This document shows, piece after piece, positions 31,922 through 38,147 of a DNA stretch of 64,000 nt. Under the pieces are notes generated by a model. It was not told the DNA's origin. It worked only from the letters and a program-made list of their open reading frames with translations, and searched no databases. Origin of the DNA: Citrifermentans bremense (GTDB lineage: Bacteria > Desulfobacterota > Desulfuromonadia > Geobacterales > Geobacteraceae); NCBI RefSeq assembly GCF_014218275.1, contig NZ_AP023213.1, forward strand, positions 1,962,001 through 2,026,000, read 5' to 3'. Each line of letters opens with the position of its first letter. Within the stretch, counting starts at the first letter, position 1. The translations under genes were made by a program, and so were the position numbers.

Positions 31922-33112
31922 ATGAGCTTTAAGAAGATCAGTGCATTGCTCTTGGTAGCGATGCTCGCAACCGGCGCTTTCGGCTGCAAGAAGAAGGAAG
32001 AGGCCCCGGCCCCGGGTGAGGCTGCCAAACCGGCCGGCAACACCGTCAAGATCGGCTTCCTCGGCGCTCTTACCGGCGACGTGGCGATGTTCGGCAAGCC
32101 GACTCTCGAAGGCATGAAGATGGCCGCTGCTGAAATCAACGCAGCCGGCGGCATTCTCGGCAAGCAGATCGAGATCGTCGAGGCCGACAACCGCGGCGAC
32201 AAGCAGGAAGGCGCCTCGGTGACCCAGAAGTTCATCTCCCGTGACAGCGTGACCGCCATCGTCGGCGACCCGACCACCGGCATCACCAAGGTCGCAGCTC
32301 CCATCGCGCAGAAGGCAGGCGTGGTGCTCCTCTCCGCAGGCGCCACCGGCCCGGGCGTTGTCGAAGTGGGCGATTACATCTTCCGCGACACCCTGCTTGA
32401 CTCCATCGCAATTCCCGCCGTCATCCAGTACTTCGCGAAGGACCTCGGCTTCAAGAAGGTGGCGATCATTACCTCCGACAACAACGACTACTCGGTAGGC
32501 CTTTCCCAGACCTTCCGCGACGCGGCCGCCAAAGTTCCTTCCATCAAGATCGTAGCCGACGAGAAGGTGAAGGACGGCGACAAGGACTTCTCCGCACAGA
32601 TCACCAACATCAAGGGACAGAAGCCGGACGTAATCCTCTTCTCCGGTTACTACACCGAGGGCGCTCTCATCATGAAAGAGGCGCGCAAGCAGGGGCTCAA
32701 GGCTCCGATGTTCGGCGGCGACGGACTCTTCTCGCCCAAATTCATCGAGCTGGGCGGCCCCGCCGTCGAGGGCTCCATGTCCGCTCTGGGCTTCTCCACC
32801 GAGCAGGCAACTCCTGCGACCGCGAAATTCATCGAGGCGTTCAAGGCCAAGCACAACGGCGAACTCCCGGGTCTCTTCGACGCCCAGGGCTATGACGCAG
32901 TGATGCTCTTGGTCGACTCCATGAAGCGCGCCAACAGCGTAGATCCCAAGGTCTTCAAGGACGCCCTTGCCAAGACCAAAGGGTTCGAAGGCGTTTCCGG
33001 CACCATCAGCATGCAGGCCAACCGCGAGCCGATCAAGAGCCCGCTCTCCCTTCTCTACGTGAAGGACGGCAAGTTCGTGCTCAAGGCAAAAGTCCCCGTC
33101 AAGATGGACTAA
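31922..33112 (+). CDS. branched-chain amino-acid ABC transporter binding lipoprotein (LivK-like)
   Basis: This is a 396-residue type I periplasmic binding protein with a lipoprotein signal (ATGAFGC-KK). The mature part has the Leu/Ile/Val-family start VKIGFLGALTGDVAMFGKP and the VTAIVGDPTTGITKVAAPIAQKAGVV segment. AAGGAGG lies 8 bases before the ATG at 31922; the longer in-frame start lacks support. No permease or ATPase gene adjoins it; livHMGF lies 13 kb downstream. Own promoter and terminator make it monocistronic. Confidence 0.92.
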   Translation: MSFKKISALLLVAMLATGAFGCKKKEEAPAPGEAAKPAGNTVKIGFLGALTGDVAMFGKPTLEGMKMAAAEINAAGGILGKQIEIVEADNRGDKQEGASVTQKFISRDSVTAIVGDPTTGITKVAAPIAQKAGVVLLSAGATGPGVVEVGDYIFRDTLLDSIAIPAVIQYFAKDLGFKKVAIITSDNNDYSVGLSQTFRDAAAKVPSIKIVADEKVKDGDKDFSAQITNIKGQKPDVILFSGYYTEGALIMKEARKQGLKAPMFGGDGLFSPKFIELGGPAVEGSMSALGFSTEQATPATAKFIEAFKAKHNGELPGLFDAQGYDAVMLLVDSMKRANSVDPKVFKDALAKTKGFEGVSGTISMQANREPIKSPLSLLYVKDGKFVLKAKVPVKMD

Positions 33113-33134
33113 AGCCTGAATCCCGCAGTATCAG

Positions 33135-33163
33135 CGGCCCCTGTTTAGGCAGGGGCCGTTTTT
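33135..33163 (+). terminator. intrinsic terminator of the binding-protein gene
   Basis: CGGCCCCTG (33135-33143) pairs with CAGGGGCCG (33150-33158) around a 6-nt loop, followed by TTTTT. Confidence 0.9.
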
Positions 33164-33248
33164 ATTTGTGTGGCAGGCCTGACAGGACTGACAGGTCGAT
33201 GTTCGCCCGGTCTGTCTCACATTTTCACAGTTGCCAGTTGTTTCCCCC

Positions 33249-33277
33249 TTGACAAGAGCAAGGGGAAAAACTATATT
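33249..33277 (+). promoter_or_regulatory. strong promoter of the riboswitch-htpX transcript
   Basis: TTGACA at 33249-33254 and TATATT at 33272-33277 with a 17-base spacer. Transcription would start near 33284, directly in front of the riboswitch core. Confidence 0.8.
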
Positions 33278-33282
33278 ACAAC

Positions 33283-33426
33283 TCGTTAAAGGGGAGTAGT
33301 TATCGGCCGGAGAAATGGCCGACCCGGTTTCCGTCAATACGGTCTTTGGACCCGGAGCCGGGGCAGATATCCTGTCAACAAGACCTTTATCCATGCAAAC
33401 GTCGTGGGTAGAGGTCTTTTTATTTA
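33283..33426 (+). ncRNA. yybP-ykoY (Mn2+) riboswitch candidate with terminator switch
   Basis: The leader carries the family's hallmark loop TTAAAGGGGAGTAG (GGGGAGTAG at 33291-33299) and the downstream conserved GTCAACAAGACCTTT (about 33374-33388), separated by paired segments. AAGACCT (33380-33386) can instead pair with AGGTCTT (33412-33418), followed by TTTATTT, forming a terminator; ligand binding would hold AAGACC in the aptamer and allow read-through. Known members of this class sense Mn2+ and often control TerC/YkoY exporters; a TerC-family gene lies two genes down. Assignment is by motif only. Confidence 0.75.
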
Positions 33427-33486
33427 CCCACGGTGACAAAAAGAGGTCCAGAAACGGACTTAACTACAATCGTCGAGGTAAATACT

Positions 33487-34344
33487 ATGCAAAGACTAAA
33501 GACAACCTTCCTACTGGCTCTTCTCACCGTTCTCATGGTTACCATGGGAAGCGCCCTGGGCGGCAGGACCGGCATGGTGACCGCCTTTGTCATGGCGCTC
33601 GGCATGAACTTCTTCTCCTACTGGTTCTCCGACAAGATCGTCCTCAAGATGTACGGCGCCCAGGAGATCGGAGAGCAGGACCACCCCATGTTCTACAACA
33701 TGGTGCGCCACCTGGCCTCCCGCGCCGGGCTCCCGATGCCCAAGGTCTACATCATCCCCTCCGACAGCCCCAACGCCTTCGCCACGGGGCGAAACCCTGA
33801 GCACGCCGCGGTCGCGGCCACGGAAGGGATCCTGCGCATCCTCTCTCCCGAGGAGCTTGAAGGGGTGATGGCGCACGAGCTCGCGCACGTCCAAAACCGC
33901 GACATCCTGGTCGGCACCATCGCGGCCACCTTCGCCGGCGCCATCTCCATGATCGGCAACATGCTCCAGTGGGGCGCCATGTTCGGGGCAGGGCGGGGCG
34001 ACGACGAAGAGGGGGGCGGCATCGGCGGACTCGTCGGTTCGCTCGCCATGGCCATCATCGCTCCCATCGCAGCCATGCTGATCCAGATGGCGGTCTCCCG
34101 CTCCCGCGAATACCTGGCGGATGCCTCCGGGGCCGAGATCTGCGGGCGCCCCTTGGCGCTCGCCTCGGCGCTCAGGAAGCTCCACATGGCGTCGCAGGCG
34201 CTTCCGATGCAGGAGGCGCGGCCGGCAACAGCCCACATGTTCATCGTGAACCCGCTGACCGGCGGCGGCATCGCCTCGCTCTTTTCGACTCATCCCCCCA
34301 TGGAGGAGCGGATCGCGCGGCTGGAGCAGATGGCGAGGTACTAA
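33487..34344 (+). CDS. htpX: HtpX-type membrane zinc metalloprotease
   Basis: This is a 285-residue M48B protease with two N-terminal and two central membrane helices. The zinc site HELAH (H130) is followed by the third ligand within [12 protein letters not shown]. HtpX degrades damaged inner-membrane proteins. The ATG at 33487 has GAGGT upstream; the in-frame ATG at 33433 lies close after the predicted terminator and is less likely. First gene under the Mn2+ riboswitch candidate, which is an unusual partner for that control. Confidence 0.92.
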
Positions 34345-34633
34345 TTTCATTCCGCTGCTAACCCCCCCTCCCAACCTCCCCCCGCTGGGGGGAGGGGACG
34401 GAAGGCTCCCCACCCCCCGCTCCTTGGCGAAAGACGAAAGGCTCCCTAAAACCCTCTCTTGGTGGGCGACGGAAGGCTCCCGAAGCCCCCTCTTTTTAGG
34501 AGGGACGGACGGCTTGTCCCTCCCCTGGAGGTGGAGGGTCAGGGAGGGGGGATTCACCTTGTCTGGGGAGAAGACGCGACGTCAGGCTCTGTTGGAACAG
34601 GGCCATCTACTTAATTTTCAGGAGAACCGCTAA
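34345..34633. other. spacer with C/G-rich palindromic repeats between htpX and terC-like gene
   Basis: The spacer contains CCTCCCCCC-GCTG-GGGGGAGG-type palindromes (about 34376-34398) and three imperfect copies of a GACGGAAGGCTCCC motif between 34398 and 34480. Similar elements occur at 60530. No gene seen; AGGAG at the right end serves the next gene. Confidence 0.55.
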
Positions 34634-35386
34634 ATGGAATGGTTTACCGACCCGCAGGTCTGGCTGGCACTGGTCACCTTGAGCGCACTTGAGATAGTGC
34701 TTGGGATAGACAACATCATCTTCATCTCGATACAGGCAAGCAAGCTCCCAGCGGACCAGCAGGAAAAGGCGAGGCTCACCGGCCTCGGGCTGGCGATGTT
34801 CATCCGGGTGGCGCTTCTTTTCTCGCTCAGCTGGCTCATGGGGCTTACCGATCCGCTCTTCTCGGTCTTCGGCAACGAGATCTCCGGGCGCGACCTGATC
34901 CTGATCTCGGGCGGCTTGTTCCTGCTCTGGAAGAGCACCATGGAGATCCACGAGAAACTGGAGGGTGAGGAGGTGATCGCCTCAGCCAAAGTGGGGGCTA
35001 CCTTCGGCGCGGTGCTGGTGCAGATCCTGCTCCTGGACATCGTCTTTTCCCTCGACTCCATCATCACCGCCATAGGGATGGCAAGCCAGCTCTTCATCAT
35101 GATTGCCGCGGTGGTCATCGCGGTGGGCTTCATGATGCTCTTCTCGGGCAAGATCAGTGCCTTCGTGGAAAAGCACCCGACCATCAAGATGCTTGCGCTT
35201 AGCTTCCTGCTCATGATCGGCGTGGCCCTGATCGGCGACGGCCTGGACATGCACATCCCCAAAGGGTACATCTACTTCGCCATGGCCTTCTCTGTGATGG
35301 TCGAGATGCTCAACCTGAGGATGCGGAGAGGGACGCCGGTCAAGCTGCACGAGCCGCGTCTCGACACCGCAGCCGAAAACAAGTAA
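34634..35386 (+). CDS. TerC-family membrane protein (putative metal exporter)
   Basis: This is a 250-residue protein with seven to eight helices. The two TerC acidic motifs are present: LEIVLGIDNIIF in helix 1-2 and LDIVFSLDSIITAIG in the second half. Bacterial members (YkoY, Alx/MeeY) export Mn2+ and are commonly under yybP-ykoY riboswitches, which fits the element upstream of htpX. The 289-base repeat-rich spacer means read-through from htpX is not certain. Confidence 0.9.
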   Translation: MEWFTDPQVWLALVTLSALEIVLGIDNIIFISIQASKLPADQQEKARLTGLGLAMFIRVALLFSLSWLMGLTDPLFSVFGNEISGRDLILISGGLFLLWKSTMEIHEKLEGEEVIASAKVGATFGAVLVQILLLDIVFSLDSIITAIGMASQLFIMIAAVVIAVGFMMLFSGKISAFVEKHPTIKMLALSFLLMIGVALIGDGLDMHIPKGYIYFAMAFSVMVEMLNLRMRRGTPVKLHEPRLDTAAENK

Positions 35387-35444: not shown

Positions 35445-38147
35445 ATGCTCAAACAAAAATCGATGCTGGTTCTTCTGGCGCTGCTGTTTCTTCTCCCCTT
35501 CGCCGGTTACCTGCTGAACTTTTACAGCGACTGGTTGTTCTTCAATGAGACGGGGTACGCCTCAGTCTTCATTACGACCATGTACGCGCAAAGCATAGCC
35601 GGCCTTCTCTTCGGGCTGCTGCTGTTCGCCTTCCTGCAGCTGAACCTCAGATACGCCAACAGGGGCGAGTTTCCGGCGCCTGGCGTCCACATCGTCGGCG
35701 GGCGCGACCTGCGCTTCAACGGCAGAACGCTGGGGCAGGTGCTGCGGCCGCTGGGGGTCCTGGTCTCGCTGGTCCTTGCCTTTTTGGGCGGCACCTGGGG
35801 CTCGTACCGCTGGGAAAAGCTCCTTTTGTTCGTGAACCGCTCCGATGTAGGGATGGCAGACCCGGTTCTTGGCAAGGACGTCGGCTTCTACCTCTTCACC
35901 CTTCCTTTCCTGGAGCTGCTGCAGCTCTTTTGCGGGTTCATGGTGCTGGCGGCCCTGATTCTCACGGCGGCCGTCTACGTGGTCAAGGGGGGAATCCTTC
36001 TCCGTGACAGCGGGGCCGGCATCGACCCTATGGCCCGCCGTCATCTGGCCGTACTGATCGGCTGCTTTTCGCTCGTAGTCGCGGGTGGGCTCTATCTGGA
36101 GAGCTTCCGGCTCTTTTTCGCCAACAATGGCATCTTAACCGGCGCCGGATACGTCGACGTCCACGCCAGGCTGCCGATGTACCGCATAGTCACCTTCCTC
36201 ACCCCAGTTGCCGGCGTGCTATTGGCTGCGGGGATCTGGAAGGGGAACTGGCGCCTCGCTCTCATACCTGCCCTCGTGGTGGCGGCGCTTTACCTCGCTG
36301 GGGTGCGGGTATATCCCGGTCTTTTGCAGAAGTTCAAGGTAGCCCCCAACGAGCTGACGCTGGAGACCCCGTACCTGGAGAACCACCTGAAGTTCACCCG
36401 CTACGGCTACGACCTCGACAAGATCGAGACCATCCCCTTCGACGTGGACGCGAAGCTCACCGCCGCAGATATCGCCAACAACGAAGCGACCATGAAGAAC
36501 ATCCGGCTCTGGGACCACGCGCCGCTTCTGAAGACCTACAGCCAGCTGCAGCAGATCCGGACCTACTACAAGTTCTTCGACGTGGACAACGACCGCTACA
36601 TGGTGAACGGCAGCTATGCGCAGGTGATGCTATCGCCGCGCGAGCTTTCCTACAGCGACCTCCCCAGCAAGAACTGGATCAACGAACGGCTCATCTTCAC
36701 CCACGGAAACGGCATCACCTTCGGGCCGGTGAGCCGCATCAGCAAGGAAGGGCTGCCGGAGTTCTTCGTCAAGGACATCCCGGCGGTGAGCCTGGCCGAC
36801 ATAAAGGTGACGAGGCCCGAGATCTACTACGGTGAGCTCTCCAACGACTACGTGGTCGTGAAGACCAAGGTCCCGGAGTTCAGCTATCCCACCGCCGCCG
36901 GCAACGTCAACACCACCTACGCCGGCAAGGGGGGGGTGCCTCTCGACTCCTTGCTCAGAAAGGCGCTCTTCGCCGGGAGGTTCAAGACCGAGAAGATCCT
37001 CCTTTCCTCGGACATCACCCCGCAGAGCCGGATCCTCTACAACCGGAACATAAGAGAGCGAGTGAGCGCTATCGCCCCGTTCCTCAGTTTCGACAGCGAC
37101 CCCTACCTGGTGGTGGACGAGCAGGGAAAGCTCAAGTGGATCATCGACGCCTACACCTTCTCTGACCGTCTACCTTACTCCAGGCCGATCAAGGGAGGTG
37201 GCAACTACCTGCGCAATTCGGTCAAGGCTGTGGTGGACGCCTATGACGGCACGGTCGCTTACTATGTGAGCGATCCCGGCGACGTTATGGTCAAGGTCTA
37301 CTCCCGTGTCTTCCCCGGGCTGTTCCAGCCGATCGACGCCATGCCCGCTGACCTCAGGAAGCACGTCAGGTACTCGCACCAGTTCCTCCAGGTGCAGGCG
37401 GCCCTCTACGCTGCCTACCACATGACCGACCCGAAGGTGTTCTACAACAAGGAGAACCTCTGGCAGGTCCCGGCCCTTGGGGAAAAGCCGATGGAACCGT
37501 ACTACACCATCATGAAGCTCCCGGGCGAGAAGAGTGAGGAGTACATCCTGCTGCTTCCCTTCACCCCGTCCAACCGCGACAACCTGGCCGCCTGGCTCAC
37601 GGCGCGCTGCGACGGTGAAAACTACGGGAAGGTCAGGGCGTACACCTTCCCACGCGACCGGTTGATCTACGGTCCCAAGCAGATCGACGCGCGCATCAAC
37701 CAGGACTCCTTCATCTCGCAGCAGCTCACCCTCTGGAGCCAGCGCGGCTCAGAGGTGATCCGGGGAAGCCTGCTGGTGATCCCCATCGAAAAGTCGCTCC
37801 TCTACGTGCAGCCGCTCTTTCTGGCAGCCGACAAGGCAGGGCTTCCCGAGCTGAAGCGGGTGATCGTGGCCTTCGGCGACCAGGTGGTGATGGAGGAGAA
37901 CCTGGAAATGGCGCTGCAGCGTCTTTTCGGGACGGGAAAGGGAGCGCCGACTCTCCCCGCAGCTTCCTCTTCCGCGCCGTCCGGTGCGCCCGGCCCGGCT
38001 GCGGGAACCCCCGCTGGTGGGCTGGCCAAGGAGGCGATGGCGATCTACGAAAGGGCTATGAACCTGCAGCGCCAGGGAGACTGGGCCGGTTACGGCGAAC
38101 AGTTGCGCAAGCTGGAGCAGGTGCTGAGGCGGATGGCGGCACAGTAA
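35445..38147 (+). CDS. UPF0182 family membrane protein
   Basis: This is a 900-residue protein. Seven N-terminal helices (about residues 8-285) are followed by a long extracytoplasmic domain with the family-typical ELTLETPYLENHLKFTRYGY, RYMVNGSYAQVMLSPREL and DPYLVVDEQGKLKWIIDAY segments. The Ala/Pro/Gly-rich linker near residue 845 precedes a short helical tail. Function of the family is unknown. Follows the terC-like gene by 58 bases. Confidence 0.92.
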   Translation: MLKQKSMLVLLALLFLLPFAGYLLNFYSDWLFFNETGYASVFITTMYAQSIAGLLFGLLLFAFLQLNLRYANRGEFPAPGVHIVGGRDLRFNGRTLGQVLRPLGVLVSLVLAFLGGTWGSYRWEKLLLFVNRSDVGMADPVLGKDVGFYLFTLPFLELLQLFCGFMVLAALILTAAVYVVKGGILLRDSGAGIDPMARRHLAVLIGCFSLVVAGGLYLESFRLFFANNGILTGAGYVDVHARLPMYRIVTFLTPVAGVLLAAGIWKGNWRLALIPALVVAALYLAGVRVYPGLLQKFKVAPNELTLETPYLENHLKFTRYGYDLDKIETIPFDVDAKLTAADIANNEATMKNIRLWDHAPLLKTYSQLQQIRTYYKFFDVDNDRYMVNGSYAQVMLSPRELSYSDLPSKNWINERLIFTHGNGITFGPVSRISKEGLPEFFVKDIPAVSLADIKVTRPEIYYGELSNDYVVVKTKVPEFSYPTAAGNVNTTYAGKGGVPLDSLLRKALFAGRFKTEKILLSSDITPQSRILYNRNIRERVSAIAPFLSFDSDPYLVVDEQGKLKWIIDAYTFSDRLPYSRPIKGGGNYLRNSVKAVVDAYDGTVAYYVSDPGDVMVKVYSRVFPGLFQPIDAMPADLRKHVRYSHQFLQVQAALYAAYHMTDPKVFYNKENLWQVPALGEKPMEPYYTIMKLPGEKSEEYILLLPFTPSNRDNLAAWLTARCDGENYGKVRAYTFPRDRLIYGPKQIDARINQDSFISQQLTLWSQRGSEVIRGSLLVIPIEKSLLYVQPLFLAADKAGLPELKRVIVAFGDQVVMEENLEMALQRLFGTGKGAPTLPAASSSAPSGAPGPAAGTPAGGLAKEAMAIYERAMNLQRQGDWAGYGEQLRKLEQVLRRMAAQ

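Follow-up and report, generated by a model that had tools for sequence, protein, structure and literature searches.

The window, a stretch of 64,000 nucleotides of the Citrifermentans bremense genome (contig NZ_AP023213.1, positions 1,962,001 to 2,026,000), contains the htpX gene encoding a membrane zinc metalloprotease, followed by terC and by a gene of the UPF0182 family. The upstream region of htpX contains a promoter, a candidate aptamer and an intrinsic terminator. In window positions, the elements are as follows.

33249..33277, + strand: promoter TTGACA-17-TATATT, 11 of 12 consensus positions
33285..33391, + strand: candidate Mn2+ (yybP-ykoY-type) aptamer; 56.8 bits, E 6e-12 with the Bacillota-built covariance model R1; 18.3 bits with RF00080 over 33279-33428
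33287..33292, + strand: 5' strand (UAAAGG) of the predicted switch helix P1.1, partner 33384-33389; pairing in 99.0% of cells across 80 leaders, 0 double changes
33293..33300, + strand: loop L1 (GGAGUA) and 5' strand of P1.2 (33299-33300); GGGGAGTAG in 88 of 90 leaders
33303..33322, + strand: helix P2, 33303-33308 with 33317-33322; changes on both sides in 5 of 6 pairs
33323..33362, + strand: helix P3, formed by 33323-33332 and 33354-33362 and, in its upper part, by 33341-33344 and 33349-33352; 11 of 13 pairs changed on both sides
33333..33340, + strand: loop L3 (GUCAAUAC); its adenosine 33336, the predicted Mn sensor, is A in 80 of 80 aligned leaders
33363..33375, + strand: short helix P4, 33363-33366 with 33372-33375; from the single-sequence fold only, length variable among leaders
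33378..33389, + strand: 3' strand of P1.2 (33378-33379), 3' side of L1 and 3' strand of P1.1 (33384-33389), from alignment A2
33380..33426, + strand: intrinsic terminator, 16 pairs and then TTTATTTA; the P1.1 3' strand is part of its 5' arm
33487..34344, + strand: htpX, membrane zinc metalloprotease, 285 aa; PF01435; NF002826 417 bits, cut-off 369; HELAH at residue 130
34634..35386, + strand: terC, TerC-family membrane protein, 250 aa; PF03741 158 bits, cut-off 27.8
35445..38147, + strand: membrane protein of the UPF0182 family (900 aa), separated from terC by 58 bases; PF03699

The promoter is the sole promoter-like site in 33100-34700 (mean of shuffles 0.2), and transcription presumably starts near 33284. 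A terminator-like site at 33133-33160 sets the htpX leader apart from the preceding gene. The original prediction described a near-consensus promoter followed at once by one leader sequence and later by another, and all these pieces are found in the sequence: TTAAAGGGGAGTAG occupies 33286-33299, a few bases 3' of the promoter, and GTCAACAAGACCTTT occupies 33374-33388. The fold of 33282-33432 is 5.2 s.d. above shuffles in stability. The leader ends in CAAGACCTTTATCC, most of which doubles as the 5' arm of the terminator. In the latter, AAGACCTTTATCC (33380-33392) and GGGTAGAGGTCTT (ending at 33418) pair in a 16-pair stem with TTTATTTA next to it; the terminator originally proposed from AAGACCT, AGGTCTT and a T run is indeed present. 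The first gene had been named htpX and the second a member of the TerC family, and both assignments hold, the former by PF01435 and an NCBIfam HtpX score above the cut-off, the latter by PF03741. Of the TerC subfamily models, those for YkoY, YjbE and Alx all score the window TerC under their cut-offs. The HEXXH motif is present in 111 of 111 aligned HtpX rows.

Candidate manganese riboswitch upstream of htpX

The htpX leader and the RF00080 class have in common L1 (GGGGAGUAG), an L3 of the form UCA-A-U with an invariant A, the P1.1/P1.2/P2/P3/P4 junction, a terminator as the expression platform, and TerC, P-type ATPase and GDT1 genes. The class L1 lies at 33291-33299 and the 3' AAGACCUUU strand at 33380-33388. 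Unlike the class, the htpX leader scores 18.3 bits against a cut-off of 45, the P1.2 helix has U-A for C-G in 38 of 80 leaders, and the RNA drives htpX. The Mn2+ contact in the solved structures is the L3 adenosine, A41 in L. lactis and A48 in X. oryzae (PMC6754395); A33336 is the motif-based equivalent of both. The L. lactis loop reads UCA41AU43UC in that source, whereas the htpX leader has UCAAUAC.

In this class, Mn2+ is reported to stabilise P1.1 and to block the terminator (PMC6754395). In the htpX leader, the terminator hairpin would take the P1.1 3' strand at low Mn2+, and transcription would end near 33420. Mn2+ bound between L1 and L3 would hold P1.1, no terminator would form, and htpX would be transcribed; terC and the UPF0182 gene would very probably be transcribed along with it, with presumed read-through to terC in the source genome. 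It is highly probable that the htpX leader belongs to the yybP-ykoY (Mn2+) riboswitches and acts as an ON switch of transcription, where we infer Mn2+ binding and the direction of switching. The RNA class is known, and the gene set is apparently new. The original assignment to the Mn2+ riboswitches is supported by the architecture, the letters of the metal site, covariation, the terminator overlap and the gene neighbourhood.

The overlap was scored in 86 of 90 Geobacterales leaders (the other four have no script-readable aptamer end), and a terminator using the P1.1 3' strand was found in 85 of the 86. As controls, the same test was positive for 9 of 1720 tails that had been shuffled while the strand was kept, and for 67 of 5000 positions drawn at random in the window. 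The Nitrospirota set contains 46 leaders, 41 of which were scored and 40 were positive. In the pattern-gathered contig set, 107 of 121 leaders were positive and 14 of 121 negative, among the matches listed; some leaders of this set may act on translation instead.

Similarity to the window yielded 104 leaders, of which 90 were used and 14 left out. Alignment A2 contains 80 of the 90; the leaders unmatched by the cutting script (L055, L079, L082, L085, L089, L092), three duplicates and L091, with an insertion, were excluded. The script demanded AG[G/A]GGAGTA and AAGAC[C/T]TTT, and invariance there is partly imposed. Among the leaders found by similarity to the window, without the script, 88 of 90 contain GGGGAGTAG. 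CGTCA comes directly after it in 86, and 84 contain AAGACCTTT.

When applied unaided to the 80 distinct leaders, RNAalifold recovered P1, P1.2, P2 and P3 but not P4; compensation is seen in 18 of the 27 pairs. In the structure as named above, 96.0% of the cells of the 80 leaders are paired, and both sides change in 17 of the 27 pairs. The number of double-change cells is 241 versus a shuffle mean of 77, and the covariation score is 0.341, falling to at most 0.101 once the partners are slid. Further pair types show no clear excess, as 72 of 500 shuffles equal the count. The second pair of P1.2 is C-G in 42 and U-A in 38 of the 80 leaders, with no exceptions. Every counted helix but P1.1 shows double changes, and P1.1, being nearly invariant, yields no covariation in these leaders. 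In the four-way junction P1/P2/P3/P4, P1.2, P2 and P3 are defined by covariation, P1.1 by constant pairing and P4 by the single-sequence fold only. The comparison of orthologous leaders proposed in the original prediction shows that the fold is conserved in related genomes: 80 leaders, taken from the source genome and its relatives, fold into the expected junction. L089 and L091 have extra sequence inside P3; L091 scores 41.5 bits, and L089 is short of significance.

Covariance models and distribution of the RNA

The Rfam scan of the window gave no family at the gathering score (RF00080, 18.3 bits versus the cut-off of 45). On the 171-base leader RF00080 gives a full-length match (18.3 bits, E 0.0017); on a 2.7-kb stretch, with E up to 10, the leader site was not returned. 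In the genome-wide scan the htpX leader is the best site, with E 0.011, below the cut-off. Two weaker sites of that scan (14.2 and 10.1 bits) were taken as chance and have no R1 match. The cut-off is reached by none of 12 Geobacterales loci tried (one with a broken leader), by none of three Nitrospirota sites tried, and by only three (L101, L116, L207) of the 12 Bacillota loci that share the motif. RF00080 was rejected as the sole judge, since its cut-off misses nine of 12 motif-bearing Bacillota loci, and thus a weak score does not exclude class membership. The original prediction proposed an RF00080 search and named the absence of a significant hit as one refutation. There is indeed no gathering-level match; on the other hand, the sub-threshold match is full-length and is the genome's best site, and the hit is absent at the Rfam cut-off only, the same that loses most Bacillota motif loci.

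A pattern derived from the window leader was run over the contig set and gave at least 120 stretches, with 123 motifs among the matches listed. The covariance model R1 was built from 34 Bacillota leaders, three of them from loci passing RF00080. The gathering pattern was taken from the window leader, so R1 holds 26 letters by selection; the independent support comes from covariation and gene context. R1 has a single match in the window, 33285-33391 (56.8 bits, E 6e-12), and three sites at E < 1e-9 in the whole genome, the next best having E 0.88. R1 finds 106 sites in 50 of 58 genomes, a set made up of the source genome and 57 relatives.

The terC leaders of Bacillota (A1 rows, e.g. L101, L116, L207) have the same motif and terminator logic as the htpX leader. 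They differ in that many have only a short P2 or lack it, and in that htpX was recognised behind none of the 82 sites among the matches listed. The first recognised gene at these 82 sites, all with at least 600 bases downstream, is TerC in 49 and a P-type ATPase in six, and is matched by no seed in 27. Sites with less than 600 bases downstream were left out; the assignment to Bacillota followed record titles, with L167 (Pseudomonas) and L192 (Chryseobacterium) counted in.

Of 198 genomes drawn from Nitrospirota, the phylum of L124, 30 have the RNA, at 41 sites. The first genes at 46 sites (these 41 and five further) are htpX in 15, P-type ATPase in 14, UPF0182 in four, GDT1 in three, TerC in one and none in nine. 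By comparison of positions, 13 of 119 HtpX matches in the 198 genomes lie behind the RNA. A draw of 297 genomes from the window's phylum has the RNA in 36; gene context in this draw covers 29 loci of 46 sites. Outside Geobacterales in the same phylum, htpX is behind the RNA in two of 23 examined loci (L355, L365). As the RF00080 cut-off can hide likely members, the Mn2+ regulons of Geobacterales and Nitrospirota are probably under-annotated.

There are two minor observations on these lineages. In L124 (3434-4658) and L267, Mn-Nitrospirae-1, two RNAs spaced by about 1.1 kb precede htpX and a P-type ATPase, respectively; the title Mn-Nitrospirae-1 may belong to a manganese-oxidising culture. The Desulfobacterota leaders L342 and L366, with AAAAGGGAGTAG and GAGACTTTT, represent a variant with an altered P1.1, and their downstream genes are matched by no seed.

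Genes behind the RNA

Among the HtpX genes of the 58 genomes, 65 share 74% identity or more with that of the window; the RNA lies 60-268 bases upstream of 60 of these. A second HtpX group, 65-73% identical, has the RNA upstream in none of 28 cases; for 20 of the 28, a repeat search of 300 upstream bases produced no match up to E 1. The search gave 118 HtpX matches, of which 93 were counted and 25 omitted (less than 65% identity or fragments, including the broken RNA-linked htpX of L019). The 74% line was picked after inspection of the table, and the split is backed by a tree of 111 HtpX (quick search, SH-aLRT only), where the linked clade has 98 and the other group 87. Two unlinked rows (L340, L341) lie inside the linked Geobacterales clade, as does L355 from another lineage. 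The idea that linked HtpX form one clade throughout was dropped, as it holds in Geobacterales, whereas linked and unlinked genes intermingle in Nitrospirota. A distinctive residue set of the linked HtpX was also discarded: seven columns are specific to the clade, and an obvious metal site is not among them. The original suggestion that htpX is tied to Mn load is supported by this genomic linkage (60 of 65 versus 0 of 28, and 15 of 46 Nitrospirota sites).

There are five exceptions. In L029 the RNA is intact (52.6 bits) and was missed by the strict filters; in L089 the leader is interrupted; L092 and L340 retain the 3' part of the RNA only. L341 has no trace of the RNA ahead of an htpX of the linked clade whose frame is open (286 codons). 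The decayed riboswitch of L340 (200-345) has kept promoter-like sequence and the terminator with GAGACCTTTATCC, has lost GGGGAGTAG and gives no R1 match.

The first recognised gene behind the 90 Geobacterales leaders is htpX in 54, Tim44-like in 14, TerC in 14, UPF0182 in two, a VTT-domain (DedA-type) gene in one and a P-type ATPase in one; none was recognised in four. Small ribbon-helix-helix matches were set aside in this count when another gene was present. Among the 54 htpX-first loci, htpX is short or broken in L019, L020 and L022. A TerC gene follows htpX in 44 loci, with a gap of -10 to 1432 bases from the stop codon (6 to 21 in 11 of them), and the arrangement of the window recurs in Geomonas (L150), Pelotalea (L197) and Geobacter (L140) records. 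Two riboswitch-htpX copies are present in 20 of the 58 genomes. The source genome itself has two htpX genes, both behind the RNA, one ahead of each of two TerC types; the third TerC gene has no such RNA in the R1 genome scan.

In the window, the gap between htpX and terC is 289 bases, and thus co-transcription of terC with htpX in the source genome is likely but unproven. It is rather unlikely, though the most serious of the alternatives, that the riboswitch is real and acts on htpX only, while terC and the UPF0182 gene use their own promoter in this gap, which is long, contains repeated GC-rich sequence and varies from 6 to 1432 bases from the stop codon among relatives. However, no promoter-like or terminator-like site was found in the gap on the + strand, it is 6 bases in L021 and L024 and 15-21 in nine others, and TerC is itself the first recognised gene behind 14 of the 90 leaders. 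The GC-rich sequence of the gap (34345-34600) has 13 other matches in the genome, 12 of them in query positions 166-215, among the best 40 of 60 candidates.

Genes of the manganese-export type downstream of the RNA are TerC, UPF0016/GDT1 and P-type ATPase, and the gene set also has protease, Tim44-like, LemA and VTT-domain genes. The presence of the latter beside metal exporters, together with the low RF00080 score, would suit a riboswitch of the same fold with a drifted ligand, such as Ni2+/Co2+, Mg2+ or another stress signal. This seems improbable: the letters of L3 are kept with the sensing A invariant in 80 of 80 leaders, TerC, GDT1 and P-type ATPase genes lie behind the same RNA, and no NiCo family match is among the Rfam results for the window. 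A ligand-free attenuator or a heat- or envelope-stress terminator, resembling the Mn2+ class by convergence, is scarcely credible, although htpX is a classical stress gene and the leader has a strong terminator, as a model from another phylum matches at E 6e-12, all counted helices save P1.1 show double changes, and TerC or P-type ATPase comes first, with no htpX, at 55 of 82 Bacillota sites among the matches listed. A sigma-32 or CIRCE consensus was found in none of 20 stretches upstream of the second, unlinked HtpX group.

Several loci show other arrangements. A second riboswitch of the source genome (L034, genome 1446000-1450700) precedes small ribbon-helix-helix and Tim44-like proteins. 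In L019, L020 and L190 the riboswitch is followed by a short or broken remnant of htpX and then by terC or a Tim44-like gene, which would suit the loss of htpX from an older operon. In L032, L033 and L064 the riboswitch looks intact, and no gene was recognised in the downstream part examined. A c-di-GMP-I riboswitch (L023, 239-315) and a cobalamin riboswitch (L142, 3468-3668) lie near examined loci.

A possible role of HtpX in the manganese response

Assuming the Mn2+ riboswitch reading, Mn load might damage or jam proteins of the membrane or the translocon, and HtpX would remove these, beside TerC acting as an exporter or a metalation factor. In B. subtilis, HtpX is among the membrane proteins copurifying with MeeF, the TerC proteins are proposed to act in metalation of exported enzymes at the translocon, and FtsH is essential when both of them are absent (PMC10550928). 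There, the link between TerC, Mn and HtpX was made by pull-down, with MeeF/MeeY and the secretosome (PMC10550928), whereas here it is made by a shared riboswitch and gene order. As a working hypothesis, a shared Mn2+ switch of htpX and terC would fit this TerC-translocon picture.

On a more tentative reading, Mn2+ riboswitches command a dedicated HtpX that serves, together with TerC (and UPF0182), as a module for quality control of the membrane or translocon. The module would be kept and often duplicated in Geobacterales, and with the pairing of the RNA and htpX recurring in Nitrospirota, membrane proteolysis would be a direct arm of the manganese response. We consider this reading possible, with the balance slightly against it. 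Gene order and shared control support TerC working together with membrane quality control.

No report of htpX behind an Mn2+ riboswitch was found among the papers listed in searches of the open literature; where PMC6337395, PMC5816637 and PMC3146418 name htpX, they deal with other matters. Membership of htpX in an Mn2+ riboswitch regulon appears to be new, and a membrane protease would join this regulon in two phyla. The UPF0182 and Tim44-like proteins gain a testable context. The UPF0182 gene is found behind the RNA in both Geobacterales and Nitrospirota (window 35445-38147; L061, L077, L265, L298, L301), sometimes as the first recognised gene.
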